Assembly: GCF_024582835.1 (NCBI RefSeq)
Contig: NZ_CP102097.1
Span: forward strand, 124,001-188,000
DNA from: Vibrio japonicus
GTDB taxonomy: Bacteria > Pseudomonadota > Gammaproteobacteria > Enterobacterales > Vibrionaceae
Direction of reading: 5' to 3'
DNA: 64,000 bases
Positions 813 through 18,748 of this stretch are shown here, piece by piece. Each line of letters begins with the position of its first letter. The first letter of the stretch is position 1. The notes below the pieces were generated by a model. The model was not told the origin of the DNA. It worked only from the letters and a program-made list of their open reading frames with translations, and did no database searches. Position numbers and translations under genes: made by a program.

Positions 813-1742
813 TTATGCACAATGCAACTCGCCATTAATCAATGAATTTTGCTCAGTAAAGTGCTTCCAAAGTTTTGACATTGTGGGCGTCATTTCTTCA
901 GTCGAAAAACGATACAATTTAATTTTAGCGGGTAAGGCTGGTATGGATTCCGAGAACCGCGTCAAGCGCTGCTCTTCTAGCTCTTCTTGGACAAAGCCGG
1001 CAGGAAGCCAAACAACGCCATGACCTGATAGCGCCATTGACTTCAATGAATGCGTCACCGCATTTTCATAGACAATTTTAAAGTTACACTTACTCTGTCC
1101 CAATGAACCATGTTTTTCCAATACCTGGGCAAAGAACGTGCTGGATGGGTAATTCAACAACGGGACACTGGCATTTTTAACATCTTTATAAAGTGGTGAA
1201 CCATCTTCTTTTGTTGCCACAACAGGAATCAAGCAATCCGTGCCGATCGTGACTGATTCAACCTCTGGGTTCGGTATGTAAAGGCGAGTACCTTTGAATG
1301 ACAAACCGATTAAGAAATCAGAACGGTTATCGATAAAAGACTGTACAGAATCATGCAAGTTCTTTGGACAAACACACACGGTTGCCGTTTTAAACGCATC
1401 GGCATTATTGTTAATCATTCGATTTACCACATATTCAGAAAGAGAGTGCTGGGTGTGGAACGTGATCGTTGTTTCATTATTGTTAACTTGCTTCACAGTT
1501 TCCAAACGCGCAAATTCGATCTGCTGTTTTAAATCATTAGCATGCTTTAGGAAACGAAAGCCCGCTTTTGTGAATGTCGCTGGGTAAGTATTTCGGTTGA
1601 CCAAATCCACGCCCACCCACTCTTCTAATAACTTGATTCTTCTACCAAAAGCAGGCTGAGTTACATTTCTTGCTTTCGCCGCCTTGGCAAAGCTACCGTA
1701 CTGAGAGAGGTACAAAAAATCCTCTATCCATTTTAAATCCAT
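813..1742 (-). CDS. LysR-family transcriptional regulator, probable regulator of the sulfonate operon
   Basis: A 309-residue protein with an N-terminal winged helix-turn-helix (about residues 1-60; motif GSFAKAAKARNVTQPAFGRR) and a LysR substrate-binding domain behind it. The helix region, with DFLYLSQYGSFAKAA and TQPAFGRRIKLLEEW, resembles the HypT/YjiE branch more than classical CbbR or CysB. It is transcribed divergently from the cuyA-like gene, with 159 bases between the two starts. That is the usual arrangement for a LysR protein controlling its neighbour. The inducer is likely the imported sulfonate or a pathway intermediate, but nothing in the sequence shows which. Confidence 0.85.
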   Translation of the reverse strand: MDLKWIEDFLYLSQYGSFAKAAKARNVTQPAFGRRIKLLEEWVGVDLVNRNTYPATFTKAGFRFLKHANDLKQQIEFARLETVKQVNNNETTITFHTQHSLSEYVVNRMINNNADAFKTATVCVCPKNLHDSVQSFIDNRSDFLIGLSFKGTRLYIPNPEVESVTIGTDCLIPVVATKEDGSPLYKDVKNASVPLLNYPSSTFFAQVLEKHGSLGQSKCNFKIVYENAVTHSLKSMALSGHGVVWLPAGFVQEELEEQRLTRFSESIPALPAKIKLYRFSTEEMTPTMSKLWKHFTEQNSLINGELHCA

Positions 1743-1901: not shown

Positions 1902-2912
1902 ATGCATTTAGCACGTTATCCACGATTGAATTTTGCGCATTTAGATACGCCGTTAGAACTGATGGAAAACCTTTCCAAAGCACTGGGTGGTCCGAACATC
2001 TGGATTAAACGAGATGATTGCACCGGTCTAGCTGGCGGCGGTAACAAAACGCGTAAACTAGAATTTTTGATGGCCGACGCAGTAGAAAAAGGCGCAGACA
2101 CCATCATTACTCAAGGTGCCACTCAGTCTAACCACGCTCGCCAAACGGCTGCTATCGCGACCAAACTAAACATGGATTGCTACATTCTGCTAGAAGATCG
2201 TACTGGCAGTGACGATCCTGATTACAAGTTCAACGGCAACGTCATGCTAGACCAGCTATTTAACGCAAAGTTATCTAAGTACCCTGGTGGAACCGATATG
2301 AACGCTGCGATGGAAGATGTCGCCGCGACACTTCGAGCCGAAGGCAAAAATCCATACATCATCCCTGGTGGCGGTTCTAACCATATCGGCGCACTTGGTT
2401 ACGTAAATTGCGCGTTAGAGATCCTCAAACAAAGCAATGATCAAAACCTAAAAATCGACCATGTCGTTCACGCAACAGGAAGTGCTGGCACTCAAGCAGG
2501 TCTAGTTACAGGCTTTGCGATGACAAATAGCCAGATTCCAGTATTAGGAGTGGGCGTTCGAGTCGATAAACCAACTCAAGAAGGCAACGTATTCAAACTG
2601 GCTCAACGTACGGCAGAGCACTTAGGTGCGAAAGATGCGGTATCACGTGAAGATGTGGTCGCCAACTGTGACTACGTCGGTGAAGGCTATGGTATTCCAG
2701 CCCCTTCTACTATCGAAGCTATCAATCTGTTTTCTACTTACGAAGGCATCCTGCTTGACCCGGTTTATTCAGGTAAAGGAGCAGCAGGCCTAATTGATCT
2801 AATTCGTAAAGGGCATTTCAAGAAAGGCGAAAACATTGTGTTTGTTCACACAGGTGGTGCACAAGCTCTGTTTGGCTACCGCGACAGCTTCGATTTTGCC
2901 AATTACGAATAA
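1902..2912 (+). CDS. cuyA: L-cysteate sulfo-lyase-like PLP enzyme (CuyA / D-cysteine desulfhydrase family)
   Basis: A 336-residue fold-type II PLP enzyme. [11 protein letters not shown] near residues 45-55 carries the expected Schiff-base lysine (K49). [13 protein letters not shown] and TGSAGTQAG are the substrate- and phosphate-binding loops of the ACC deaminase/D-cysteine desulfhydrase family. CuyA of marine bacteria belongs to this family and splits L-cysteate to pyruvate, ammonium and sulfite. The CuyA call over D-cysteine desulfhydrase rests on context: the next gene is a CuyZ-type exporter and the operon holds an HpsN-like dehydrogenase and a TRAP transporter. The start has AGGAG seven bases upstream. 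D-cysteine desulfhydrase remains the main alternative. Confidence 0.75.
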
Positions 2913-2933
2913 GCACTGAGGTAGAAGAAAGTC

Positions 2934-3956
2934 ATGGCCAATATCCTAAGTAACAATTCACATATTGAGCAACTAGCAAGCATCAAAAATACCTATACAC
3001 CGGGAATTTTAATCTCAGTTCTTGTTGGTTTAGCTGCGCTTTATCTATCCAACAATTATGGTGCTCCTGCAATGTTAATGGCTCTGTTATTGGGTATGGC
3101 CTTTAACTTTCTTAGTGTTGAGGCTGCGTATGCTAAAGGACTGGAGTTTACCGCCAAAACGGTACTGAGAATCGGCGTTGCCCTGCTCGGCGTGCGGATC
3201 ACACTGGGTGACATTACGTCACTTGGTGTCACCCCCATCATCACAGTGTGCGCGGCGGTGGGATCCACCATTGCATTTGGTATTTTTCTTGCGAAAAGAA
3301 TGGGATTTAATACTCACTTTGGCTTGCTCACAGGTGGCTCTGTGGCTATCTGTGGCGCTTCTGCGGCTATGGCCATCAGTGCCATCTTGCCACAAAGCGA
3401 AGAAACAAAGCGCAATACCTTATTCACTGTCATCGCGGTGACTACTCTCAGCACACTTGCCATGGTAGTTTACCCACTGATCGCTTTGGCACTTGATCTT
3501 AATACAGCCGAGACTGGGTTCTTCTTAGGGGGTACCATCCATGACGTTGCTCAGGTTGTCGGCGCAGGTTACAGCGTATCGGAAGAAGCTGGTAACTTAA
3601 GTACTTTCGTTAAATTGTTACGTGTAGCGACCCTTGTACCAGTAGTATTGATCGCATCCTTTTTCTTAATGAAGCAGAGTGCATCACGTCAAGGAAACAA
3701 AGTGCAACTGCCCTTTTTCCTCATTGGGTTTGTATTGATTTTTATTGTGAACAGCACTGGGGTTATCCCTGCCGTTCAACTTGAACTGCTCACTGCCTTA
3801 TCGTCGAAATTGCTTTTATTCGCTGTCGCGGCATTAGGGGTGCGCACTTCGCTCAAAGACGTATTAACGGTCGGTATTAAACCTATCTTACTCGTTGTTA
3901 TGGAAACGCTATTTATCGCCGCAGTTATTTTGCTGTGTATCTTCTTCACTCGATAA
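2934..3956 (+). CDS. cuyZ: YeiH/CuyZ-family membrane protein (UPF0324), putative sulfite/sulfate exporter
   Basis: A 340-residue integral membrane protein with about ten hydrophobic segments and the conserved UPF0324 (PF03601) features LRIGVALLGVRITL, GGSVAICGASAAMA and GGTIHDVAQVVGAGY. Members next to cuyA or suyAB genes are named CuyZ or SuyZ and are thought to export the sulfite or sulfate released by desulfonation. It starts 21 bases after the cuyA-like gene, so the two are almost certainly co-transcribed. The transported anion is inferred from context. YeiH proteins outside sulfonate loci have no settled function. Confidence 0.78.
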   Translation: MANILSNNSHIEQLASIKNTYTPGILISVLVGLAALYLSNNYGAPAMLMALLLGMAFNFLSVEAAYAKGLEFTAKTVLRIGVALLGVRITLGDITSLGVTPIITVCAAVGSTIAFGIFLAKRMGFNTHFGLLTGGSVAICGASAAMAISAILPQSEETKRNTLFTVIAVTTLSTLAMVVYPLIALALDLNTAETGFFLGGTIHDVAQVVGAGYSVSEEAGNLSTFVKLLRVATLVPVVLIASFFLMKQSASRQGNKVQLPFFLIGFVLIFIVNSTGVIPAVQLELLTALSSKLLLFAVAALGVRTSLKDVLTVGIKPILLVVMETLFIAAVILLCIFFTR

Positions 3957-3973
3957 AATATCAAGGAAATAAA

Positions 3974-5299
3974 ATGGAATTTATTAAAAAAGCCAACAAA
4001 AAAGACGACGTTGCTGATAACGATTTAGAAACACGTGCCATTGTTGAAGGCATGCTTAAAAGAATTGAGCAAGAAGGTGAACAAGCCGTCGCTGAGTACG
4101 CTGAAAAATTCGACAATTGGACTTCGGAGTTTGTTTTATCGAATGAGAAGCTGCAGCAACTGATCGACTCTGTGCCTCAAAGTGTCAAAGATGACATCGA
4201 CTTTGCTCATAAACAGATTAAGCGTTTTGCGAATGCGCAACGTAACAGCTTAACTGAGTTCTCTATCGAAACAGAAGAAGGCGTGACACTGGGGCAAAAA
4301 GTGCTACCTGTGCAAGCGGCTGGTTGCTACGTCCCTGGTGGTCGATACGCCCACGCAGCTTCAGCTCTAATGAGTGTCGCGACTGCCAAAGCGGCCGGTG
4401 TTCCCAACATTATCGCTTGTTCACCTCCGCGTGGTGATAGCATTAATCCAGCTGTTGCTTATGCAATGCACGTCGCAGGCGCGGATATCATTCTAGAAAT
4501 GGGCGGTGTCCATGCGATTGCAACAATGGCGAATGGCCTGTTTGGCACACCCAAAGTCGACATCATTGTGGGCCCAGGTAACGCCTATGTCGCAGAAGCC
4601 AAACGCGCCCTATTCGGCCCAGTTGGGATTGATGTTTTTGCTGGCCCGACGGAATCGGCCATCATCGCAGATAAATACGCAGACCCAATGACGATTGCCG
4701 TTGATTTAGTTTCTCAAGCTGAGCACGGAATCAACTCACCCGTTTGGCTATTTACCACGTCACGTGAAATCGGTGAAGAAGTGCTGGCGATCATGCCGTC
4801 GGTCATTGCCGACATGCCAAACGCAGATGTCTGTGAAGCATCATGGCGTGACTACGGAGAAATCATTTTCTGCGAAGACAAAGTAGAGCTTGCAAAAGTC
4901 AGCGATGAATACGCGTGTGAACACCTACAAGTCATGACGGAAGATTTAGAATGGTGGAAAAACACCCTCAATAACTACGGCTCACTTTTCCTCGGCGAAG
5001 GCAGTACAGTGACTCATGGCGATAAATGCTCTGGCACAAACCATATTCTGCCGACCAAATGCGCAGCTCGCTACAGCGGTGGTCTTAACGTTCAAAAATT
5101 CATGAAAGTGTTGACTTACCAACAAATCAGCAACGACGCAAACCTGATTTTCAGTGCTGCAGGTTCTCGTATTTCACGCACCGAAGGCATGGAAGGTCAC
5201 GCTCGCGCTTGTGATTGGCGACTACGTAAATACTTCCCAGAGATGGATTGGGATTTTGAAGTTTACAACCAGAAGTCGTACACATCTGAGGAAGTTTAG
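3974..5299 (+). CDS. hpsN: HisD-family NAD-dependent dehydrogenase (sulfopropanediol 3-dehydrogenase-like, HpsN)
   Basis: A 441-residue HisD-fold protein. AGCYVPGGRYAHAAS and VGPGNAYVAEAKRALFG are the NAD- and substrate-binding signatures. LVSQAEHG holds the Gln/His zinc-type ligands, and YACEHLQVM holds the catalytic Glu-His pair. No other his gene is nearby, so this is not biosynthetic histidinol dehydrogenase. HpsN, a HisD relative, oxidises 2,3-dihydroxypropane-1-sulfonate to sulfolactate in two NAD-dependent steps. HisD itself does the same to an amino alcohol, so an aminated C3-sulfonate alcohol is also a plausible substrate here. The start at 3974 has AAGGAAA upstream and abuts the cuyZ end. 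The stop directly precedes the next ATG. Confidence 0.78.
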   Translation: MEFIKKANKKDDVADNDLETRAIVEGMLKRIEQEGEQAVAEYAEKFDNWTSEFVLSNEKLQQLIDSVPQSVKDDIDFAHKQIKRFANAQRNSLTEFSIETEEGVTLGQKVLPVQAAGCYVPGGRYAHAASALMSVATAKAAGVPNIIACSPPRGDSINPAVAYAMHVAGADIILEMGGVHAIATMANGLFGTPKVDIIVGPGNAYVAEAKRALFGPVGIDVFAGPTESAIIADKYADPMTIAVDLVSQAEHGINSPVWLFTTSREIGEEVLAIMPSVIADMPNADVCEASWRDYGEIIFCEDKVELAKVSDEYACEHLQVMTEDLEWWKNTLNNYGSLFLGEGSTVTHGDKCSGTNHILPTKCAARYSGGLNVQKFMKVLTYQQISNDANLIFSAAGSRISRTEGMEGHARACDWRLRKYFPEMDWDFEVYNQKSYTSEEV

Positions 5300-6493
5300 A
5301 TGGAAAAGTTCACCAAATCCTTCACTCAACAAGCCCCTATCCCCGAGGAAGGGATCGCGCTTGCCGTAGAGGTGATGCGTACTGGTCGCTTGCATCGATA
5401 TAACGTTGAGTCGGGTGAGAAAAGTACAACTGATCAACTTGAACTCGCCTTTGCTGACTACATGGGTGTAGAGAATTGCTTGGCTTGCGCATCATGCGGA
5501 TATGCCTTACATATCGCGATGCGCAGCGTCGGGGTGAGTCACGGTGACAAAGTGTTGTGTAACGCTTTCACATTAGCCCCTGTACCGGGCGCAATTCACA
5601 ACACAGGTGCTACTCCAGTACTGGTTGAGATTGATGAAAACCTGTGTATCGACCTAGACGATCTTGAAGACAAAGCGAGCCAAAGTGGCGCTAAGTTCTT
5701 ACTGCTCTCGCATATGCGTGGCCATATAGCAGATATGGATAAAGTGATCGATATTTGTCACCGCTACGACCTAACGCTGATTGAAGACTGCGCTCATACC
5801 ATGGGGGCAAAGTGGAATGGCAAACTTAGCGGCAGCTTCGGCGATGTCGCGTGCTTTAGTACCCAAACCTATAAGCATATGAACTCTGGTGAGGGTGGCT
5901 TACTGGTGACACCGCATAAGAAGATCATGGCGAAAGCAATCATCTACTCAGGTTCATATATGCTCTATGACCGTCATCATGCGGCTCCAGAGAAGAGCGA
6001 GTTTGATGATGTTCGCCTGCAAACGCCTAACTACAGTGGTCGTATGGATAATCTGCGCGCTGCGACGTTACTACCACAACTGGCTAAGTTAGACGACGAC
6101 TGCAAAGCGTGGAATCTACGCCATGACATTGTTGCTGAAGTACTCACAACCAGTGACAAGATCAGGTTAACTGAACGCCCAGAAAAAGAGCAATTTGTTG
6201 CCAGCTCCATTCAATTTAGCGTACCTACTTTGAGCTCGGAGCAATGTCTTTCACTGGTAGAGCGATGCGCGATGCGCGGTGTGGTAATCAAGTGGTTTGG
6301 CAGCAGCAACCCTGAAAGTTACACCAGCAAATATGACAGCTGGGCCTATTTGGATGATGAAGCACAGCTTGTAAACACGGATCGCGTCCTCTCTACCCTA
6401 CTGGATATGCGTCTTCCGCTGACGTTTAGCGAAGACGATTGCAGCTTAATTGCCAAAATCATCGTACAAGAAGTAGAGGCGACTTATGAGTAA
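5300..6493 (+). CDS. DegT/DnrJ/EryC1-family PLP aminotransferase
   Basis: A 397-residue fold-type I aminotransferase of the sugar/aldehyde-acting DegT group. Visible features are CASCGYALHIAM near the N-terminus, IEDCAHTMGAKWNGK (PLP-ring Asp) and TQTYKHMNSGEGG, which supplies the Schiff-base lysine. The start follows the hpsN stop with no gap (TAGATG) and has GAGGAAG upstream. It overlaps the racemase gene by eight bases, so translation is coupled. Family members move an amino group onto a ketone or aldehyde. In this operon the likely acceptor is an oxidised C3-sulfonate, or the enzyme takes the amino group off an amino-sulfonate. No characterised sulfonate pathway that I can name uses this family at this step. 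Confidence 0.8.
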   Translation: MEKFTKSFTQQAPIPEEGIALAVEVMRTGRLHRYNVESGEKSTTDQLELAFADYMGVENCLACASCGYALHIAMRSVGVSHGDKVLCNAFTLAPVPGAIHNTGATPVLVEIDENLCIDLDDLEDKASQSGAKFLLLSHMRGHIADMDKVIDICHRYDLTLIEDCAHTMGAKWNGKLSGSFGDVACFSTQTYKHMNSGEGGLLVTPHKKIMAKAIIYSGSYMLYDRHHAAPEKSEFDDVRLQTPNYSGRMDNLRAATLLPQLAKLDDDCKAWNLRHDIVAEVLTTSDKIRLTERPEKEQFVASSIQFSVPTLSSEQCLSLVERCAMRGVVIKWFGSSNPESYTSKYDSWAYLDDEAQLVNTDRVLSTLLDMRLPLTFSEDDCSLIAKIIVQEVEATYE

Positions 6494-7196
6494 CCATCTG
6501 ACTCCGGGCGTTATCGGTGGTATGGGGCCAGAAGCCACGATTGATTTGATGTACCGCGTGTTTGAACAAACACCGGCTACAGACGACAGTGGACACATTC
6601 GATTGCTAGTAGACAACAACCCTAAAGTGCCATCGCGCATCAAGGCCATCATCGAAGGCACTGGCGAAAGCCCTGCTCCGTGCATGGTCAAAATGGCACA
6701 GGGTCTTGTGAACCAAGGGGCTGACTTTTTGGTCATCCCTTGTAATACCGCCCATTACTACTATCAAGAGGTCGCGAGCTCTGTCAATGTCCCTGTGATC
6801 AATTTGCTCGATATTACCGCCGAGACAATGCGTGCACTTGGCTACGAAAAAGTCGGCTTACTGGGTTCCACTGCCCTTCAGATAACCGACATTTATGGAC
6901 CAGTGTTTAACAAACATGGTCTGATCCCAGTATATCCGGATCAACATCATCAGGATGATTTGATGGCGCTCATCAAAGCGATCAAAGCCAAATCATTCAC
7001 TACTGCTGATCTGAAAACTCTGAATGAGTTACAACATCACATGATGAGTAAAGGCGTGGATTGCCTTGCACTCGTCTGTACAGAGCTTTCCGTGATTAAA
7101 GACAAAATAGAATGTGACGTAGCTGTATTTGATGCAGTAGACATTCTATCCAAGGAAATCATTGAACGCGCACAACACACTAAACCCAATCTTTGA
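6486..7196 (+). CDS. Aspartate/glutamate racemase-family protein, possible cysteate racemase
   Basis: A 236-residue protein with GVIGGMGPEATIDLMYRV at the N-terminus, the signature of the YgeA/aspartate racemase family. Both catalytic cysteines are present, in VIPCNTAHYYY (about residue 83) and LALVCTELSVI (about residue 200). It should therefore be an active two-base, PLP-independent racemase. L-cysteate is the sulfonate analogue of L-aspartate and the first gene of the operon encodes an L-cysteate-type lyase. Racemisation of cysteate, or of a close analogue, is the best guess. The gene overlaps the aminotransferase gene and has GAGG six bases before its ATG. Confidence 0.78.
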   Translation: MSNHLTPGVIGGMGPEATIDLMYRVFEQTPATDDSGHIRLLVDNNPKVPSRIKAIIEGTGESPAPCMVKMAQGLVNQGADFLVIPCNTAHYYYQEVASSVNVPVINLLDITAETMRALGYEKVGLLGSTALQITDIYGPVFNKHGLIPVYPDQHHQDDLMALIKAIKAKSFTTADLKTLNELQHHMMSKGVDCLALVCTELSVIKDKIECDVAVFDAVDILSKEIIERAQHTKPNL

Positions 7197-7208
7197 AGGA
7201 ACGAAACC

Positions 7209-8195
7209 ATGAAGAAGACGATTATCTTAAGTACTGCAATGCTTTTATCGTTGTCAGCCCATGCCGCAAAATGGAATATTGCGATTGGTGATGGTGCGGG
7301 CTCAACACAAGAGATCATTGCTCAGAAGTTTTCTGACATTCTTGCCGAAGAGACCAAAGGCAAAATCGAAACCGCCCTGTTTGTGAATGGCCAATTAGGC
7401 TCCGAACAAGCCACCGTCAACGATGTCTCTATGGGGCTACTTGATATGTCTGTTGTGGGTAGCTCTAACCTTGCCGCCCTATCCCCTGCTATTGGACTTT
7501 TCACCTATCCGTACATGTTTCACAACATTGAAGATGCAAAAAAGGCATTAGAGAGTGATGTCACAAAAAAAATTGAAGAAGATGTACTGAAACAAGCCAA
7601 TGTACGCATAGTTTCTTGGACTTACTCTGGCTTTCGTCGCTTAACTAATTCAGAACGTCCAGTCACAAAACTCGAAGATCTTCAAGGCCTGTCTGTGCGC
7701 GTACCTAAAAGTAGAGTGATTTTAGACACCTATAAATCACTTGGCATTGGCGCAACACCAATCGCATGGAGCGAGACATTTGCCGCGCTGCAACAAGGTG
7801 TAGTTGATGGGCAAGAAACGCCTTATGCCGCGATTCAATCGATGAAATTTGGTGAAATTCAGAAATACCTAACGGAAACGCACTACCTATTCCAAATCGA
7901 GCCAGTACTGATGTCTGAGAGCCTATATCAAGCTCAGTCAGATGACGTAAAACGTGCTATTGATAAAGCTGGTGATGAAGCAGAGCTATATAGCTACGAG
8001 TACTTAATCAAGGCCGAAGACAAAATCAAACAAGATTTGGTTACCAATTACGGTATGAAGATCAGCAAACTTGAAGATGAACAAAAGTGGATCGACAAGC
8101 TGCAAAAGGAAGTATGGCCAAAATACTTTGATGAAGTCGGTGGCAAAGCACGCGTCAATGAGCTTTTGGAAGCGATGGGCCGTGACACTCTATAA
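7209..8195 (+). CDS. dctP: TRAP transporter solute-binding protein, DctP type
   Basis: A 328-residue periplasmic protein with the signal peptide MKKTIILSTAMLLSLSAHAA, cleaved before KWNIAIGDG. DctP features follow: FVNGQLGSEQATVNDVSMG, LQGLSVRVPKSRV (the conserved arginine that binds the carboxylate or sulfonate of the ligand), and GVVDGQETPYAAI. It lies in the middle of the sulfonate operon, 12 bases after the racemase gene, and is followed by its membrane subunits. Known DHPS degraders import the substrate with TRAP systems (HpsKLM), which supports a sulfonate ligand. The exact ligand cannot be read from the sequence. Confidence 0.9.
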   Translation: MKKTIILSTAMLLSLSAHAAKWNIAIGDGAGSTQEIIAQKFSDILAEETKGKIETALFVNGQLGSEQATVNDVSMGLLDMSVVGSSNLAALSPAIGLFTYPYMFHNIEDAKKALESDVTKKIEEDVLKQANVRIVSWTYSGFRRLTNSERPVTKLEDLQGLSVRVPKSRVILDTYKSLGIGATPIAWSETFAALQQGVVDGQETPYAAIQSMKFGEIQKYLTETHYLFQIEPVLMSESLYQAQSDDVKRAIDKAGDEAELYSYEYLIKAEDKIKQDLVTNYGMKISKLEDEQKWIDKLQKEVWPKYFDEVGGKARVNELLEAMGRDTL

Positions 8196-8206
8196 ACAAA
8201 ACTAGC

Positions 8207-8232
8207 CAATGTGGGGAGTGATCCCCACATTG
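8207..8232 (+). promoter_or_regulatory. Perfect hairpin between dctP and dctQ
   Basis: An 11-bp perfect inverted repeat (8207-8217 with 8222-8232) around a GTGA loop lies just after the dctP stop and before the dctQ start. Only three T follow it, so it is a weak terminator at best. Hairpins here commonly protect the upstream mRNA or reduce read-through, so that the binding protein is made in excess over the membrane subunits. Confidence 0.6.
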
Positions 8233-8250
8233 TTTCTACAGGGAAGTAGT

Positions 8251-8763
8251 ATGTTTAAAAATATCATTGATAATTTCGAAAACTACATTTGCCGAATCTT
8301 ACTCGTGGCATTTACCTCCATCCTATTTATGCAAATCATTGCAAGGGAGATATTTGACCATTCCATCAGCTGGAGTGAAGAGTCGGCAGTTTACTTATTC
8401 GTTTGGTTTGTCTTTTTTGGTGCCAGCAGAGCCATTCGCATCGAAGCGCACAATAGAATTGACTTCCAATATAAATACTTACCTAAAAAAGTAGTGGCTA
8501 TTTTCAAAATATTAGCCGAGCTATCCTGGCTGCTATTTAACCTTTATTTCTTCTATTTATGCTACGACTTTGTGTTCAATAAAATGAATTTATATTGGAA
8601 GTCACAGACTCTGGGGATCCCAATGAAAATGATCTACATGATTATGCCCATTGCCTTCCTGTTAATGACGCTCAGACACATTCAGATCAACCTAAAAAAG
8701 ATTATCCAACGCTGCACCACTAGTAGCTGTATCAAAAACAACCAAGCCAAGGAGATGATATGA
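8251..8763 (+). CDS. dctQ: TRAP transporter small membrane subunit, DctQ type
   Basis: A 170-residue protein starting MFKNIIDNFENYICRILL with four hydrophobic segments. It has the DctQ signature around ISWSEESAVYLFVWFVFFGASRAIR. The start at 8251 is chosen over an in-frame ATG at 8209, because 8209 lies inside the hairpin and 8251 has GGGAAG upstream. The stop overlaps the dctM start by four bases. It is the small partner of DctM, needed for sodium-driven uptake of the ligand bound by DctP. Confidence 0.9.
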   Translation: MFKNIIDNFENYICRILLVAFTSILFMQIIAREIFDHSISWSEESAVYLFVWFVFFGASRAIRIEAHNRIDFQYKYLPKKVVAIFKILAELSWLLFNLYFFYLCYDFVFNKMNLYWKSQTLGIPMKMIYMIMPIAFLLMTLRHIQINLKKIIQRCTTSSCIKNNQAKEMI

Positions 8764-10100
8764 TCCCTTTAAGCATCACATTCGTTCTTTTTGCGACGTT
8801 TTTCTTACTGTTGATTATCGGCTCACCTATCGCTGTGGCATTAGGTGGGGCATCGATTCTCTCTTATCTTCAGCTTGATCAAAACCCAATTAAATTGGTT
8901 CAGCTTGGCTTTAATGCGATTGGCTCCTTTCCACTTATGGCGATCCCTGCGTTCATTTTTGCGGGTGCTATTATGGAAGCGGCTGGCATTTCAAAACGCC
9001 TTGTGCACATTGCAGAAACTTTATCGGGCTCGTTCACTGGTGGTATTGGTGCATCGACGGTTGTGGCTTGTATCTTCTTTGGCGCGATATCGGGCTCTGG
9101 TCCAGCAACGACAGCAGCGGTAGGTATGCTGATGATCCCGGCAATGATTAAGCATGGGTACGGCAAAGATTACTCAGCTGCAGTAACCGCAGCTTCGGGT
9201 GGTTTAGGCATTATCATTCCACCGTCTATCCCTATGGTCATCTTTGGTATTTCCGCCATGGGTATTGCTCCACCGTTTGAAGCTGTTGCGGAATTTGGTC
9301 AGTTCCAATCCATATCCATCAGTAAAATGTTTGTCGCTGGTGTAATCCCAGGCCTAATCATGTCACTCAGTATTCTTATTTACAATTACGTCTATTGTAA
9401 GCGTTCGAATATAGCTCGCTCTAACCATGACTGGTCTTTTAAAGAATCGATTCAAGCTTGTCGCGATGGAATATGGTCTCTTAGTGCACCCGTTGTTATT
9501 TTGGGCGGTATTTATACGGGATTATTTACACCGACTGAATCAGCTATTGTGACAATTTTTTATGTGCTGTTTGTCGGGGTATTTATTCATAAAGAGCTTA
9601 CGTGGAAAGAATTTACCAAATGCATTGATTCCACCGCTTGGTTATCCGGCCGCATCATGCTGATATTGCTAACCGCCACCGCATTTGGTCGCTTATTAGT
9701 AGAAAACCAAATTCCAGTGGTCATTGTCGATGCGTTAACCGCACTCACAACCAACCCTTACCTGATTTGGTTGCTGATTATTGGCATTCTGTTGTTTGTT
9801 GGCATGTTTATGGAAACCCTAGCCGCAATTATGATTTTGACGCCAGTGTTGCTGCCCGTCACTTACACACTTGGTATTGACCCGGTGCACTTCGGCGTCG
9901 TGATGATTTGCGCGCTTTCCATCGGCTTTTCAACACCGCCGCTTGGTGAAAACTTATTTGTCGCGTCGGCCATTGCGGAAACCCCGTTCGAGAAAATTAC
10001 AGCAAAAGTCACTCCAATCGTTTTCATTGCTGTGTTAGCTGTTATCATCATCGCGTTTATACCGCAAATTTCACTCTGGTTACCTAGCTTGTTCTACTAA
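8760..10100 (+). CDS. dctM: TRAP transporter large permease, DctM type
   Basis: A 446-residue membrane protein with 11-12 hydrophobic segments. DctM hallmarks are IAVALGGAS early on, FGAISGSGPATTAAVGMLMIP in the first half, SGGLGIIIPPSIPMV, and FSTPPLGENLFVASAIA near the end. It is the sodium:solute carrier of the TRAP system and the last gene of the sulfonate operon. A strong terminator-like hairpin follows at 10116-10148. Confidence 0.92.
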   Translation: MIPLSITFVLFATFFLLLIIGSPIAVALGGASILSYLQLDQNPIKLVQLGFNAIGSFPLMAIPAFIFAGAIMEAAGISKRLVHIAETLSGSFTGGIGASTVVACIFFGAISGSGPATTAAVGMLMIPAMIKHGYGKDYSAAVTAASGGLGIIIPPSIPMVIFGISAMGIAPPFEAVAEFGQFQSISISKMFVAGVIPGLIMSLSILIYNYVYCKRSNIARSNHDWSFKESIQACRDGIWSLSAPVVILGGIYTGLFTPTESAIVTIFYVLFVGVFIHKELTWKEFTKCIDSTAWLSGRIMLILLTATAFGRLLVENQIPVVIVDALTALTTNPYLIWLLIIGILLFVGMFMETLAAIMILTPVLLPVTYTLGIDPVHFGVVMICALSIGFSTPPLGENLFVASAIAETPFEKITAKVTPIVFIAVLAVIIIAFIPQISLWLPSLFY

Positions 10101-10115
10101 CCAGCATAAAAATTG

Positions 10116-10148
10116 AGGTGCTGTACTTTAAAAGTGCAGTGCCTTTTT
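10116..10148 (+). terminator. Rho-independent terminator after dctM
   Basis: A 12-bp stem with three G-T pairs (10117-10128 with 10132-10143) and a TAA-type loop is followed by five T. It closes the sulfonate operon and shows that the upstream in-frame ATG-like codons of the next gene are not its start. Confidence 0.75.
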
Positions 10149-12343: not shown

Positions 12344-14461
12344 ATGCAAAGGATTTTTACGCGAGTTCTAGTGTGTCAGGTGCTGGCACTCCTTTTTGTT
12401 AGTTTCAATAGCTACGCATTATTTGTCAGCCCGCCCAAAGACCCCATCCCCCTCATACAGCAGGTATTTCCTGACCTAACTTCGATCTCAGACAAACAAG
12501 GTGAACCGTTAGTCAGAACCATTAAAAAAGATGACAATATCATTGCTTACGCCTTTGAAACCAATGACATTGCTAGCATTCCCGCCTATTCCGGCGAGCC
12601 AGTTAACACGCTCGTTATTATCGATCCTAAAGGTCAGTACTTGGCGTCAAAGGTACTAGAACATCACGAGCCCATTATTTTGGCAGGCATACCTGAAAGC
12701 AAACTTTGGGAGTTCAGTGACCAGTATGTAGGTTTATCTGTTAAAGACCGAATTAAAGTGGGCGGTAAACAGAATGCGAGCTATGTGCCCATCGATGGTT
12801 TATCGGGCGCGACGGTAACCGTGATGGTGATGAATGTTGCCATTACCAAGGCCGCGACGAAAGTTGCCGAATCACTCGGCATCTTGAAACCAAGCAGCAA
12901 TGTCATTCAACCCAAATCCACGATTAAACATGACGTTTTTGCTCAGAAAAACTGGCTTGAGCTAACTGGAGATGGCTCTATTCGTAAACTCTTGGTTCGC
13001 AAAGGAGCGGTGCAAGAAGCGTTCAACGATACTGAAGCGGAGAATGTAGATCGCGTTAAAGATAACGAAGTTGACCAAACATTTGCAGAAATCTATTACG
13101 CTTTGGCAGATATCCCGACTATCGGCAAGAACTTGTTTGGCGAGCAAGAGTATCAATGGCTAACCAAAGACTTAAAACCCGATGAGCATTTAATCGCGAT
13201 TTTTGGTAATGGCTACTCCTATAAAGGCTCTGGTTATGTTCGTGGCGGTATTTTCGATCGCCTGCAAGTACATCAAAACGAAAACGAGATTTCTTTTAGA
13301 GACTTAGACCACAGCCGTATCCTCGATCTTCGTATTGCTGGCGCACCTAAGTTTCATGAAATGTCTGTCTTTAAAGTGCAAGCCCACCACGAGTTTGACC
13401 CCGGTGCTAGTTGGCAAGTGGAGTTACTTGTGCGACGCCAGCTAGGGGCAATTGATAGTGTCTTTACGAGCTTTAAGGGGGAGTATGACCCACTACCTGA
13501 ATACGTTGACACACCTGAACCAATTATTATCGAGCCAGAACTGTCGTTAACCCAACAAGTCTGGGATGAGAGCAAAGTCAAAGTTATCATTCTGCTCGCA
13601 CTTATCACAACTCTCATACTCATGCTGTTTTTCCAAGATATATTGGTCAAGCATCCAACCTTTATGCATCGTTTTCGCCATGGTTTCTTGGTGATTACGG
13701 TTGTGTTCATCGGCTGGTTATGGGGTGGACAGCTCTCCGTCGTGAACGTCTTTACTTTCCTAAACGCACTCATGACCCAGTTCTCTTGGGACTTGTTCTT
13801 ACTAGACCCGATGATATTTATTCTATGGTGCGCAGCCGCTGTCACCATTGTTATGTGGGGACGCGCAGTTTACTGCGGTTGGCTATGTCCATTTGGAGCA
13901 CTTCAAGAACTTATCAACCAAAGTGCCAGATACTTTAAAATACCTCAGTTTGAGCTTCCGTGGGCAGTACATGAGCGACTATGGGCTATCAAGTATCTAA
14001 TATTGCTTGGCTTGTTTGCACTGTCTTTAGACTCACTTGCCCTCGCGGAACAATTTGCAGAAATTGAACCATTTAAGACGACATTCTTGCTGAAATTCGA
14101 TCGTGAATGGCCATTTATCTTATGGGCGGTGTTCTTACTTGCGCTCAACCTTTTCAATCGCAAAACTTTCTGCCGCTATTTATGTCCGTTGGGTGCTGCA
14201 CTTTCTGTGTCTAATAATATCCGTCTATTCAACTGGCTTAAACGTCGCCCTGAATGCGGTTCACCTTGCAAAATCTGCGCGAAAGAATGTGAAATCCAAG
14301 CGATTCACCCCAACGGTGAAATCAACATGCGCGAATGTCACTACTGCCTAGATTGCCAAATCACCTATTCCAACGAAAGCAAATGCCCACCCTTGAAAAA
14401 GCAGGCTTATAAAAAACAGAAACAGAGACATGCTGATATCCCAGTAACCGAAATCCCTTAA
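12344..14461 (+). CDS. nosR: NosR, FMN- and iron-sulfur-containing electron-transfer protein for N2O reduction
   Basis: A 705-residue membrane protein. After a signal segment it has a periplasmic FMN-binding domain with the flavin-attachment motif DGLSGATVT (about residues 150-158). Several membrane helices follow from about residue 410. CGWLCPFGA and CRYLCPLGAA are the two CxxxCP motifs of the NapH/NosR family. A ferredoxin-like tail contains CGSPCKICAKEC and CHYCLDC (4Fe-4S ligands). NosR passes quinol electrons towards NosZ and is needed for its activity. The start has GAGGGAAC upstream. It is the first gene of the nos operon. Confidence 0.95.
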   Translation: MQRIFTRVLVCQVLALLFVSFNSYALFVSPPKDPIPLIQQVFPDLTSISDKQGEPLVRTIKKDDNIIAYAFETNDIASIPAYSGEPVNTLVIIDPKGQYLASKVLEHHEPIILAGIPESKLWEFSDQYVGLSVKDRIKVGGKQNASYVPIDGLSGATVTVMVMNVAITKAATKVAESLGILKPSSNVIQPKSTIKHDVFAQKNWLELTGDGSIRKLLVRKGAVQEAFNDTEAENVDRVKDNEVDQTFAEIYYALADIPTIGKNLFGEQEYQWLTKDLKPDEHLIAIFGNGYSYKGSGYVRGGIFDRLQVHQNENEISFRDLDHSRILDLRIAGAPKFHEMSVFKVQAHHEFDPGASWQVELLVRRQLGAIDSVFTSFKGEYDPLPEYVDTPEPIIIEPELSLTQQVWDESKVKVIILLALITTLILMLFFQDILVKHPTFMHRFRHGFLVITVVFIGWLWGGQLSVVNVFTFLNALMTQFSWDLFLLDPMIFILWCAAAVTIVMWGRAVYCGWLCPFGALQELINQSARYFKIPQFELPWAVHERLWAIKYLILLGLFALSLDSLALAEQFAEIEPFKTTFLLKFDREWPFILWAVFLLALNLFNRKTFCRYLCPLGAALSVSNNIRLFNWLKRRPECGSPCKICAKECEIQAIHPNGEINMRECHYCLDCQITYSNESKCPPLKKQAYKKQKQRHADIPVTEIP

Positions 14462-14536
14462 GTTGCGAGGTACCGTAGCACTCGCTGCGGGCATCTACAT
14501 GTATCAGCCCTACACATAATAAATTGGAGACTTAAC

Positions 14537-16429
14537 ATGAGCGATGACGACAAATACCTCAATGAAGACAATTTGCCGGTCAATGCCGACCGACGAAAGT
14601 TTTTTGGAACCAGCGCAGCAATTGGATTGGGTGTCGTCACCGCCCCAATGTCTGCCGCAATGTTTGCTTCGATGGCGAAAGCTCAAGCAGCAGAAGCCGG
14701 AAACAGTCCATATGTTGAGCCCGGTGAAATGGACGAATACTATGGGTTTTGGAGTGGTGGTCACTCCGGTGAGGTGCGTATTCTCGGTATCCCTTCTATG
14801 CGCGAACTTATGCGTATTCCTGTTTTCAACACCGACAGTGCAACTGGTTGGGGTTTTACCGACGAAAGTAAACGTATAAAAGGAGATAGCGCACATATCA
14901 TGTCTGGTGACTCACACCACCCTCATATGAGTATGACCGATGGTCGCTACAACGGTAAATATGTCTTTATCAACGATAAAGCTAACTCGCGCGTTGCTCG
15001 TATTCGTTGTGATGTTATGAGAGTGGACAAAATGATCACGATTCCTAACGTTCAAGCGATTCATGGTCTTCGCGTACAAAAAGTCCCTGAAACTAAGTAC
15101 GTTATTTGTAACAGTGAATTTGAGATCCCAATGAATAACGATGGTAAAGCGACATTGGAAGATGCCAGCACTTACCGTTCTCTATTCAATGTGATTGACG
15201 CCGAAAAAATGGAAGTGGCATTCCAAGTCATGGTTGATGGTAACCTCGATAATACGGATGCCGACTACGACGGAAAATACTTTGCGTCAACCTGTTATAA
15301 CTCCGAAATGGGCATGAACTTAGGCGAAATGATCACAGCAGAACGCGATCACGTGGTTGTTTTCAGTCTTGCTCGTTGTGAAGAAGCGTTAAAAGCAGGT
15401 AAGTTCAAAACATACAACGGTAATGAGGTACCTGTACTTGATGGCCGTAAAGGCTCTGACCTCACTCGCTACATTCCCGTGCCTAAATCACCACATGGCA
15501 TGAACACCTCACCAGATGGTAAGTACTTTGTTGCCAACGGCAAACTGTCGCCAACGGTATCTGTTATTGCTACCGCTAAACTGGATGACTTGTTCAACGA
15601 CAAAATTCAACCAAGAGACACCATCGTTGCCGAACCTGAGCTAGGGCTTGGTCCACTGCACACCGCTTTTGATAATCGCGGTTTTGCTTACACGACCTTG
15701 TTCCTTGATAGCCAAATTGCTAAGTGGAGCTTAGAAGAAGCAGTAAAAGCGTACAATGGTGAGAAAGTTAACTACATCAAACAGAAAATTGATGTGCACT
15801 ATCAACCAGGGCACAACAGTACGTCGAGTGGCGAAACACGTGATGCGGATGGTAAGTGGCTTGTTTCACTCTGTAAGTTTTCCAAAGACCGCTTCTTACC
15901 TGTAGGTCCACTAAGAGCTGAAAACGACCAACTTATCGATATTTCTGGTGATGAAATGAAACTGGTCCACGATGGACCGACATTTGCTGAACCTCATGAC
16001 GGAACGATTATCCACCGCAGCAAAGTAAAACCAAGCAAGATCTGGTCTCGCGATGATCCTATCTTCGCGGAAACGGTAGAAATGGCGAAACGCGATGGTG
16101 TTAACGTTATGACGGATAATAAAGTGATTCGAGACGGTAATAAGGTTCGTGTCTATATGACGTCAGTCGCGCCGACTTTTGGTATGAACGAGTTCAAAGT
16201 CAAACTGGGCGATACAGTGACGGTGGTCGTGACGAACCTTGATACCATCGAAGATGTAACCCATGGGTTCTGTATGACGAATCATGGTGTGCAAATGGAA
16301 ATCAGTCCTCAGCAAACCGCGTCAATTACCTTCGTTGCTGATAAACCTGGCGTTCAGTGGTACTACTGTAACTGGTTCTGCCATGCGCTTCATATGGAAA
16401 TGCGAGGCCGAATGCTAGTGGAGGCGTAA
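14537..16429 (+). CDS. nosZ: Nitrous oxide reductase, clade I (Tat-exported)
   Basis: A 630-residue enzyme reducing N2O to N2 in the periplasm. The N-terminus has a Tat signal ([15 protein letters not shown]), which marks clade I. CuZ histidines are visible in [40 protein letters not shown] and AEPHDGTI. The C-terminal cupredoxin domain has the CuA ligands in [19 protein letters not shown] (two Cys, His and Met, with a further His upstream in MTNHGVQ). Length is normal for the family and no key residue is missing. It lies 75 bases after nosR and is followed by a strong hairpin. Confidence 0.97.
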
Positions 16430-16443
16430 TTCGCGTTTCATCC

Positions 16444-16480
16444 AGCTCCCTCTTTTACGGAGGGAGCTACCTTGTATTTT
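16444..16480 (+). terminator. Hairpin after nosZ, likely partial terminator or mRNA stabiliser
   Basis: A perfect 9-bp GC-rich stem (16444-16452 with 16460-16468) is followed by ACCTTGTATTTTT. It lies 15 bases after the nosZ stop and before nosD. It probably reduces read-through into the maturation genes, giving more NosZ than NosDFY. Confidence 0.6.
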
Positions 16481-16493
16481 TGACTACGTGAGG

Positions 16494-17828
16494 ATGAATT
16501 CATTGAAACATACTTCTTGGCTGCTCATCGTTACTCTCATCTATCACGGTTATGCGTTTTCCGCAGTAACAGCAGTACATCCAAATGATGATTTACAGAA
16601 AATACTCAATCTTGCCGAGCAAGGTGACACCATTGTTCTAGATCAAGGGCGTTATAACGGAAACTTTACGGTTTCTACCGCGTTAACTCTGACCAGTACG
16701 AGTGGCGCGACGATTGATGCAGGCGGAAAAGGCAACGCGATCACACTGACGCACTCAGGTATCGAGATTTCAAACCTAAACATCGTGAACTGGGGACGAA
16801 ACCTCACTGACCAAAATGCTGGGATCTATTCGGACAAGGCGGTACAGGACCTGACCATTACCCGTAATCACCTTGAAGGTGATGGCTTTGGTTTGTGGAT
16901 TCAAAGAGCTCAAAACATCACGATCAGTGACAACGTGGTGGTGGGTAACCCTTCACTTCGTTCCGCCGACAGAGGCAATGGCATACAGCTGTCTACCGTC
17001 AAAAATGCCCACGTAAGCAATAACACCATTTCACAAACTCGTGATGGACTTTACGTCATCTCTAGCCAGCAATCCGAGTTACGTAATAACACGATGCACG
17101 ACCTCAGATACGGCATCCATTATATGTATTCTCATAGTAATCGTGTCATTGGTAATCTTGCTTACAATACTCGCGCTGGGTACGCCTTAATGAGCTCTAA
17201 GCAGCTTTCCGTTTTGGGCAACATCAGCCGAAACAATGAAGATTATGGCATGCTGATGAACTTCATTACGAACTCAACCATCAGTTACAACCAAATCAAA
17301 AACATATGGACCAAACCTGAAAACAAAGTCGTAGGACGTGAAGGAAAAGGGTTATTCGTCTACAACTCTGGCTATAACGAAATCAGCTACAACACCATTG
17401 ATACCGCGGAGATAGGTATCCACCTTACTGCGGGATCGGAAAACGTAAAAGTAAGCGGTAACAGCTTCATAAACAATCCGGTACAAGTTAAATATGTCTC
17501 TACTCAAGCACAAGAATGGAGCATAGAAGGTAGAGGAAACTATTGGAATAACTACCTTGGCTGGGATTTAAACAATGACGCGTTAGGCGATACGCCTTTC
17601 GAACCGAATGATGGCATTGATAAAGTGGTCTGGAAATACCCCGAAGCTAAAGTCCTGCTCGACAGCCCCGCCATACTTTTGCTGCGCTGGATACAAAAGC
17701 AATTTCCAGTCCTAAAACCGTCTGGTGTTAAAGATTCTTTTCCTCTGATGTCTCCTTTAGACATTTCGGCAGAACTAGAGCAGCTCTCCGCTCCTGCCCC
17801 ATTACAAACACAAGAGAGTCATTTATGA
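16494..17828 (+). CDS. nosD: NosD, periplasmic copper-cluster maturation protein (beta-helix)
   Basis: About 444 residues with a signal peptide (LLIVTLIYHGYAFSAV) and a right-handed parallel beta-helix. The CASH/PbH1 repeats are seen as recurring patterns such as ITRNHLEGDGFGLWI, ISDNVVVGN, VSNNTISQTRDGLYV and ISYNTIDTAEIGIHL. NosD receives copper and, with NosF and NosY, assembles the CuZ site of NosZ. The exact start is uncertain: GTG at 16488, ATG at 16494 and TTG at 16503 are all in frame, with GTGAGG as the ribosome-binding candidate. The stop overlaps nosF by four bases. Confidence 0.92.
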   Translation: MNSLKHTSWLLIVTLIYHGYAFSAVTAVHPNDDLQKILNLAEQGDTIVLDQGRYNGNFTVSTALTLTSTSGATIDAGGKGNAITLTHSGIEISNLNIVNWGRNLTDQNAGIYSDKAVQDLTITRNHLEGDGFGLWIQRAQNITISDNVVVGNPSLRSADRGNGIQLSTVKNAHVSNNTISQTRDGLYVISSQQSELRNNTMHDLRYGIHYMYSHSNRVIGNLAYNTRAGYALMSSKQLSVLGNISRNNEDYGMLMNFITNSTISYNQIKNIWTKPENKVVGREGKGLFVYNSGYNEISYNTIDTAEIGIHLTAGSENVKVSGNSFINNPVQVKYVSTQAQEWSIEGRGNYWNNYLGWDLNNDALGDTPFEPNDGIDKVVWKYPEAKVLLDSPAILLLRWIQKQFPVLKPSGVKDSFPLMSPLDISAELEQLSAPAPLQTQESHL

Positions 17829-18748
17829 GTACAGCCATCGTTCAGCTCACTAACGTTAGCAAACATTATAAGTCTCTCCATGCGGTTGATGACCTGAGCT
17901 TCTCGATTCAACCAGGAGAAGTACTAGGGCTATTTGGTCATAATGGCGCCGGTAAAACCACGACTATGAAGCTGATTCTTGGCGTCATTGAAGCTTCAGA
18001 AGGAACCGTGAGCGTTTTTGGTTCCAACCCATCCACAAAACAAGCGTGGCAAAGCCGGAAGCAGATTGGCTACCTTCCAGAAAATGTGAGTTTCTATGAA
18101 CAGCTCACCGGATTAGAGGTTCTCACCTACTTTGCTCGCTTAAAATCGGCACCGAAAGCTCAGGTGAAGCAATTACTGACACAAGTGGGATTGGCCGACG
18201 CGTTGAATCGGCAAGTCAAAACCTATTCCAAAGGGATGAGGCAACGTTTAGGTCTTGCTCAAGCCTTTTTGGGCGACCCAAAATTGCTACTGCTCGATGA
18301 ACCAACCGTCGGCCTTGACCCGATTGCCACTCAAGAGTTTTACCAAAGCGTTGACTCGCTCAAGCAAGGCGGTGCTAGTGTTCTTCTCTGTTCTCACGTG
18401 CTTCCCGGGGTTGAGCAACACATCGACCGAGCAATGATTCTGTCCAAAGGCAAAGCCATCACCATTGGAACGCTCGAAGAACTAAGAAAGCAAGCAAAGC
18501 TGCCAACCAAAATCAAAGCGACTGGTCTCAACGGTGCAATTCAGGCCAACACAATCTTATCGTCTTTTGCCACTTCGACTAATCAGCTCTCCGTACCAAA
18601 CGAAGACAAAATGAAGGTGCTAAGAGAGCTACTTGCTTATGAGTCACTGAACGATTTGCAAATGGAGCCTGCAAATCTAGAACAGATTTATCAACACTTT
18701 CTCCATTTACCCAGCGAAGATCCGAAGTCAAAGGAGCTCAAATCATGA
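17825..18748 (+). CDS. nosF: NosF, ABC ATPase for NosZ maturation
   Basis: A 307-residue ATPase with Walker A GHNGAGKTTTMK, signature YSKGMRQRLGLAQA, Walker B LLLLDEPTVGLDP and the switch histidine in LLCSHVLPG. It works with the NosY membrane dimer and NosD. The gene overlaps nosD and nosY by four bases at each end, so the three proteins are translationally coupled. About 80 residues beyond the core form a C-terminal extension typical of exporters of this type. Confidence 0.94.
   Translation: MSTAIVQLTNVSKHYKSLHAVDDLSFSIQPGEVLGLFGHNGAGKTTTMKLILGVIEASEGTVSVFGSNPSTKQAWQSRKQIGYLPENVSFYEQLTGLEVLTYFARLKSAPKAQVKQLLTQVGLADALNRQVKTYSKGMRQRLGLAQAFLGDPKLLLLDEPTVGLDPIATQEFYQSVDSLKQGGASVLLCSHVLPGVEQHIDRAMILSKGKAITIGTLEELRKQAKLPTKIKATGLNGAIQANTILSSFATSTNQLSVPNEDKMKVLRELLAYESLNDLQMEPANLEQIYQHFLHLPSEDPKSKELKS

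Follow-up and report, generated by a model that had tools for sequence, protein, structure and literature searches.

A stretch of 64,000 nucleotides from Vibrio japonicus (contig NZ_CP102097.1, positions 124,001 to 188,000; referred to below as the window) contains, at 1902–10100, an operon in which a paralogue of HpsN, here called HpsN2, is directly followed by a gene for a DegT-family aminotransferase. HpsN2 is part of a separate clade of the HpsN family, paired with DegT. In the reading that we marginally favor, the operon serves C3 sulfonate catabolism: DegT would aminate 3-hydroxy-2-oxopropane-1-sulfonate (HOPS) to cysteinolate, HpsN2 would oxidize cysteinolate to L-cysteate, and CuyB and CuyA would finish the breakdown. 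For DegT, HpsN2 and the tripartite ATP-independent periplasmic (TRAP) transport system, the substrates given here are inferred. A wider proposal, in which we have rather less confidence, is that DegT and HpsN2 may form an undescribed two-enzyme bridge (HOPS to cysteinolate to L-cysteate) that joins the algal pools of 2,3-dihydroxypropane-1-sulfonate (DHPS) and cysteinolate to sulfite, by way of CuyB and CuyA, in certain marine bacteria, and in others to taurine, with SalA-bearing Alphaproteobacteria using the first half for a lipid head group. The operon and its flanking features are as follows:

813–1742, minus strand: LysR-type regulator, divergent (NCBIfam and Pfam matches)
1902–2912, plus strand: CuyA, D-cysteate sulfo-lyase (NCBIfam NF052482, 557 bits, cut-off 450; Pfam PALP)
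2934–3956, plus strand: CuyZ-like putative sulfite exporter, YeiH family (Pfam PF03601, Cons_hypoth698, 225.6 bits)
3974–5299, plus strand: HpsN2, HpsN paralogue, proposed cysteinolate dehydrogenase (4-electron, NAD, Zn; Pfam Histidinol_dh)
5300–6493, plus strand: DegT-family pyridoxal phosphate (PLP) aminotransferase, proposed HOPS:glutamate (cysteinolate-forming) transaminase (PF01041)
6486–7196, plus strand: CuyB, cysteate racemase (NCBIfam NF052483, 257 bits, cut-off 190; Pfam Asp_Glu_race)
7209–8195, plus strand: DctP, TRAP solute-binding protein (NCBIfam, Pfam DctP)
8242–8763 (alternative start 8209), plus strand: DctQ, TRAP small permease (Pfam DctQ)
8760–10100, plus strand: DctM, TRAP large permease (NCBIfam, Pfam DctM)
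10115–10145, plus strand: terminator-like stem-loop (consensus match only)

The open reading frame map of the window confirms eight plus-strand genes, as a sequence-only reading of the same DNA had described them, packed with spacings of −8 to 46 bases behind a divergent LysR gene; the intergenic distances in gene order, with negative values for overlaps, are 21, 17, 0, −8, 12, 13 or 46, and −4. HpsN2 starts at the ATG at 3974, with the first GTG at 3935. Many related loci likewise have a LysR-family gene diverging from the operon. The terminator of that reading corresponds to the stem-loop listed above, but such matches are no commoner in the window (10) than in its shuffled versions (mean of 11.8). 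It had also called for a neighborhood search for the HisD-like gene with the racemase and CuyA, and the operon genes are indeed found together again across many genera, so that their grouping is more than chance.

HpsN2, a DegT-paired clade of the HpsN family

The best solved relatives of HpsN2 are HpsN of Cupriavidus (CpHpsN, 8v35, 508 bits) and of Ruegeria (RpHpsN, 8wwe, 466 bits), both (R)-DHPS 3-dehydrogenases; the best histidinol dehydrogenase (HisD) scores 237 bits. HpsN2 carries the HpsN motif GRYAH (general form G-R-Y-A/S-H) with the sulfonate-binding residues H127 and K351, which are kept in all 48 HpsN2 rows of the alignment. PMC11382572 names ten positions that concern zinc, catalysis or the substrate, and at nine of them all 48 rows keep the same residue. 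At the tenth, Ser226, HpsN2 has Thr, as do 17 of the 18 rows of the characterized HpsN clade. HpsN2 thus shares its family, the motif and the zinc, catalytic and sulfonate residues with HpsN, but differs in forming its own clade, set apart from those 18 rows at 24 positions, in lacking adjacent hpsO and hpsP, and in its pairing with DegT.

In a tree of 79 rows, rooted by the long HisD branch, all 48 DegT-adjacent sequences, including that of this operon, fall on one branch (support of 99 in the Shimodaira–Hasegawa-like approximate likelihood ratio test), and CpHpsN and RpHpsN lie on a separate branch of 18 rows (94). Four sequences were left out: L027, in which HpsN2 is in two pieces, and three of the 26 class-search loci described below (L086, the partial L104 and L111). 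A second tree, which leaves out HisD and adds 62 sequences, including these last three, gives the same split with supports of 99 and 95. Here, the DegT-adjacent branch gains four sequences, all of them beside DegT, and the characterized branch holds none of those four.

The pairing can be followed in gene neighborhoods from genome contigs. When loci are chosen by DegT (the best 80 of 516), 77 have at least 1400 bases upstream, and 48 of these carry an HpsN-type gene directly 5' of DegT. Loci can instead be chosen by HpsN similarity alone, which gave 26 in a class sample of 369 genomes and 27 in an order sample of 390 genomes. HpsN2 occurs in one locus of the former and three of the latter, and all three independent ones adjoin DegT; the fourth, L067, belongs to the center genome of its sample and is therefore uncounted. 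DegT is found in none of the other 49 HpsN-family loci, with flanks of about 1.4 kb and several loci cut by contig ends.

A canonical HisD was considered for HpsN2 and rejected, given the HpsN motif and a separate HisD on C1 with a family score of 574.6 bits versus 442.1; HpsN2 nonetheless exceeds the cut-off of the broad TIGR00069 hisD model (426.4 bits, cut-off 243.8). If the proposal is right, part of the genes currently annotated as histidinol dehydrogenase or sulfopropanediol 3-dehydrogenase may belong to another clade. A predicted structure of HpsN2 (mean predicted local distance difference test score 71.7; residues 334–376 below 50) was not used. In L027 (8672–9977, Marinomonas phaeophyticola), the two pieces of the gene could reflect a frameshift or an assembly error. 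A third HpsN/HisD-like clade (L099–L103, L105, L107–L110, L062 and L071; about 44–48% identity) has Leu or Met in place of the sulfonate His and keeps the Lys.

The proposed route through cysteinolate

In the favored reading, a C3 sulfonate would enter as HOPS and/or the amine cysteinolate, imported by the TRAP system. DegT would transfer the amino group of glutamate to HOPS to give (R)-cysteinolate. HpsN2, acting with zinc, would use two NAD-dependent oxidations to take the CH2OH group of this amino alcohol to COOH and so form L-cysteate. CuyB would then turn L-cysteate into D-cysteate, CuyA would split this to pyruvate, ammonia and sulfite, and CuyZ would export the sulfite. With HOPS as the DegT substrate, each operon gene can be given a function and the route is complete, which does not hold for a route through sulfolactate.

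The back half of this route, from L-cysteate to D-cysteate and on to pyruvate, ammonia and sulfite, is already known, and the names CuyA and CuyB come only from curated family models. As in CuyA/CuyB cysteate dissimilation elsewhere, both proteins score over their NCBIfam equivalog cut-offs and a CuyZ-type exporter is present; unlike there, an HpsN paralogue and a DegT aminotransferase are added upstream of cysteate. CuyA is also above the broader subfamily model TIGR01275 (338.6 bits, cut-off 289.4). D-cysteine desulfhydrase was rejected as its identity, since those equivalog models give 303–323 bits, under their cut-offs, versus 557 for CuyA. Both racemase cysteines are present in the translation of CuyB (PCNTAH and VCTE), as had been read from the sequence for an Asp/Glu-type racemase, and it passes NF052483. 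The CuyZ-like exporter is under the TIGR00698 cut-off (152.7 bits, cut-off 232.6). The sequence-only reading had the racemase supplying L-cysteate to CuyA. The direction should be the opposite: NCBIfam names CuyA a D-cysteate sulfo-lyase, so CuyB would act from L- to D-cysteate, and in PMC11382572 CuyB interconverts the two forms and CuyA prefers D.

In the front half, the DegT protein matches PF01041 (195.9 bits). Its PLP lysine, K192, is present in all 81 DegT rows, and R33, R140, R248 and W332 are also identical throughout; such invariance, whatever the neighborhood, suggests that the homologues share one reaction. The nearest solved relatives in a sequence search, none above 119 bits, include KdnA (5k8b) and scyllo-inosose aminotransferase (2c7t), which act on sugar or cyclitol ketones or aldehydes. 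The protein shares its family and PLP lysine with these DegT/DnrJ/EryC1 aminotransferases but differs in the C3 sulfonate substrate proposed for it. To our knowledge, DegT enzymes take sugar-like ketones or aldehydes, not 2-oxo acids, so HOPS would be the simplest substrate. DegT is the most constant partner of HpsN2, and most likely makes cysteinolate from HOPS.

For HpsN2 itself, Cupriavidus HpsN binds L-cysteate much like R-sulfolactate, as a weak inhibitor with a half-maximal inhibitory concentration of 2.4 mM (PMC11382572), so that the HpsN pocket can take a 2-amino group.

What follows HpsN2 and DegT differs between loci. CuyA occurs in 32 of the 80 DegT loci and a group II PLP decarboxylase (PF00282) in 18, never both; a match of 29% identity in L067 was left out, which lowered the latter count from 19. 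CuyB accompanies CuyA in 28 of the 32 loci and the decarboxylase in none of the 18. Of the four CuyA loci without CuyB, two stop short after DegT, L044 after 202 bases and L058 after 1145; the other two, L059 and L080, are not cut off in this way. One decarboxylase sequence, from L009, was searched as a representative, and its nearest solved relatives are GADL1 and cysteine sulfinic acid decarboxylase (CSAD); it is under the cut-offs of all four NCBIfam models that it matched. GADL1 and CSAD make (hypo)taurine from L-amino acids. A relative of these enzymes thus replaces CuyA in 18 of 80 loci, and the window has no such gene. A D-cysteate lyase needs a racemase and an L-cysteate decarboxylase does not; the product of HpsN2 and DegT is then most simply L-cysteate, which is probably common to both kinds of locus. 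The sequence-only reading, in which a HisD/HpsN-like enzyme makes cysteate directly from cysteinolate, fits both the DegT-tied clade and the replacement of CuyA and CuyB by a decarboxylase, but it had given DegT no role. As a whole, that interpretation is partly supported.

HpsN2 and DegT lie near a divergent gene resembling that for cysteine sulfinate decarboxylase in L008, L009, L011, L014, L016, L024 and others, from Oceanospirillaceae and Granulosicoccus, where a route from cysteinolate to taurine is possible. The operons of L063 and L065 are near-identical and come from metagenome-assembled genomes (MAGs) labeled Anaerolineae and Alphaproteobacteria, probably through a binning error.

A further possible use of the DegT reaction involves SalA, the O-acyltransferase of a lipid with a cysteinolic acid head group (PMC8319176, PMC11631085). 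The SalA query was chosen by its HX5D motif, Arg at +26, Val at +80 and FPSG, following PMC8319176. Among 248 genomes of one Alphaproteobacterial family, SalA is found in 177 of the 202 with a DegT homologue (E ≤ 1e-110) versus 9 of the 46 without, at a cut-off of 1e-65 that was set after the scores had been seen; a cut-off of 1e-40 gives 187 of 202 versus 23 of 46. In L068–L070, L072, L073, L078, L079 and L083, an Alphaproteobacterial DegT homologue lies near glucosamine-synthesis-like and acyl-CoA (leucine-degradation-like) genes.

Alternative readings and points against the proposal

The leading alternative, which we consider unlikely and which the gene content weakens, makes HpsN2 an ordinary (R)-DHPS 3-dehydrogenase. 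Sulfolactate would be oxidized to sulfopyruvate by an enzyme coded elsewhere, and DegT would be a sulfopyruvate:glutamate aminotransferase giving L-cysteate for CuyB and then CuyA. This would be the published third DHPS route, for which the aminotransferase gene in R. pomeroyi is called unknown (PMC11382572). It agrees with the retention of the HpsN substrate contacts in HpsN2, and four of the six CuyA–DegT loci that lack HpsN2 (L058, L076, L035 and L037) are in genomes with a canonical-clade HpsN. The aminotransferase step runs against the substrate range noted above, as DegT enzymes are not known to act on 2-oxo acids.

If HpsN2 acted on DHPS, HpsO or HpsP and a sulfolactate dehydrogenase would be expected. 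Adjacent hpsO and hpsP serve as a criterion for HpsN in PMC11382572. Neither is beside the pair in any of the 48 loci (in L011, HpsP is 2.7 kb distant, and the 28% HpsO match in L020 is far off) and neither is in the operon, no search aimed at HpsO having been made over the whole genome. HpsP is absent from this genome at E ≤ 1e-50. The ComC family (PF02615), the only sulfolactate dehydrogenase family searched, is absent too. A search for HpsP in 38 HpsN2 genomes (37 of the 48 locus genomes and this one; L026 and L034 were searched as well) finds it in just 11, namely all 10 with canonical HpsN and one of the 28 without. Thus 27 of the 38, this genome included, lack both. Canonical HpsN coexists with HpsN2 in at least 11 of the 48 genomes (G497 unresolved), which also speaks against this alternative; all 11 are in the characterized clade by the second tree, eight with 67–72% identity to the HpsN of L026 and three, from Granulosicoccus, with 57–58%.

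The one HpsP without canonical HpsN is that of L011, where HpsN2 is the sole HpsN and HpsP is 2.7 kb from the decarboxylase, HpsN2 and DegT genes. HpsP forms HOPS from DHPS, so that in L011 it would supply HOPS to the pair. This keto compound between cysteinolate and DHPS is reported in DHPS-producing diatoms and coccolithophores (PMC11131964). DegT and the decarboxylase adjoin HpsP, HpsO and HpsN in L026 and L034, and DegT is beside a 31% HpsO relative in L071.

A less probable alternative, in line with the sequence-only reading, has cysteinolate as the imported substrate and its direct oxidation to cysteate by HpsN2, and makes DegT a side route that moves the other enantiomer or a surplus to the HOPS/DHPS pool. 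It draws on the same HpsN2 evidence as the favored reading. Cysteinolic acid is abundant in marine microalgae, where it can equal or exceed dimethylsulfoniopropionate and is in the range of DHPS (PMC8703288). In L075, DegT occurs without CuyA or HpsN2, and the genes after it group with a betaine-type (OpuAC) binding protein and with an ATP-binding cassette (ABC) ATPase, as if DegT acted there on an imported zwitterion. However, HpsN2 is beside DegT in every sampled case (3 of 3 independent loci, and the 48 selected through DegT), and this points to a required step, not an optional one; the operon also has no HOPS-using gene.

We give very little credence to a separate role, in which the cuy genes degrade cysteate only and HpsN2 and DegT, within the same regulon, have a different amino alcohol or an amino sugar acid as their substrate: the substrates proposed here for the two are predictions, but the pair is tightly and repeatedly linked with CuyA or the cysteine-sulfinate-type decarboxylase in different genera, and H127 and K351 are kept in all 48 rows.

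Several observations weigh against the route through cysteinolate. The substrate contacts named in PMC11382572 are the same in HpsN2 and HpsN, so that an amino substrate is not directly indicated by them; the keto substrate of DegT is deduced from family habit and context. DegT has no HpsN2 beside it in 6 of the 32 CuyA loci and 3 of the 18 decarboxylase loci. HpsN2 is not adjacent in 32 loci, these nine among them, and the genomes of 24 of the 32 were searched for canonical HpsN: a canonical-clade HpsN (52–57%) is present in 16, only a 45% relative in one, and none in seven. One of the seven, L059, has CuyA and DegT, consistent with cysteate formation by DegT independently of HpsN2. Enzymes of the sulfolactate route, such as SlcC/SlcD-type sulfolactate dehydrogenases, HpsO or SuyAB, may be encoded elsewhere in the genome. 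The association of SalA with DegT is uncorrected for shared ancestry and may mark only a core roseobacter gene set. Finally, the title of an old reference names algal cysteinolic acid as the D form, which would give D-cysteate with no need for a racemase.

Significance, distribution and neighboring genes

Should the proposal be true, the DegT–HpsN2 pair names enzymes of cysteinolic acid turnover and is a gene marker for marine sulfur flux, with two suggested fates, sulfite or taurine; the operon could explain how cysteinolic acid, an algal osmolyte, and related compounds are broken down. Within the open literature searched (subscription papers and preprints lay outside it), we found nothing on a cysteinolate dehydrogenase, a HOPS transaminase or a DegT–HpsN operon, and no degradation or synthesis enzyme where cysteinolic acid is named.

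The genome is 4.24 Mb in three contigs. Within the genus, it alone among 37 has the DegT gene, and overall 2 of 61 relatives do; this patchy distribution suggests that the operon was acquired by horizontal transfer. Close versions are found in a Vibrionaceae MAG (L005) and in Vibrio sp. Isolate32 (L006).

The sequence-only reading had listed Xsc (sulfoacetaldehyde acetyltransferase) as missing. This holds for the operon, but a full Xsc is encoded outside the operon and the window (C2:982060–983811; 1075 bits, cut-off 676.4), which may let the strain use taurine or isethionate as well. Downstream of the operon, a nitrous oxide reductase cluster lies at 12344–18748 and following positions, with NosR (1057 bits), NosZ of the twin-arginine translocation type (1046 bits), NosD and an ABC ATPase.

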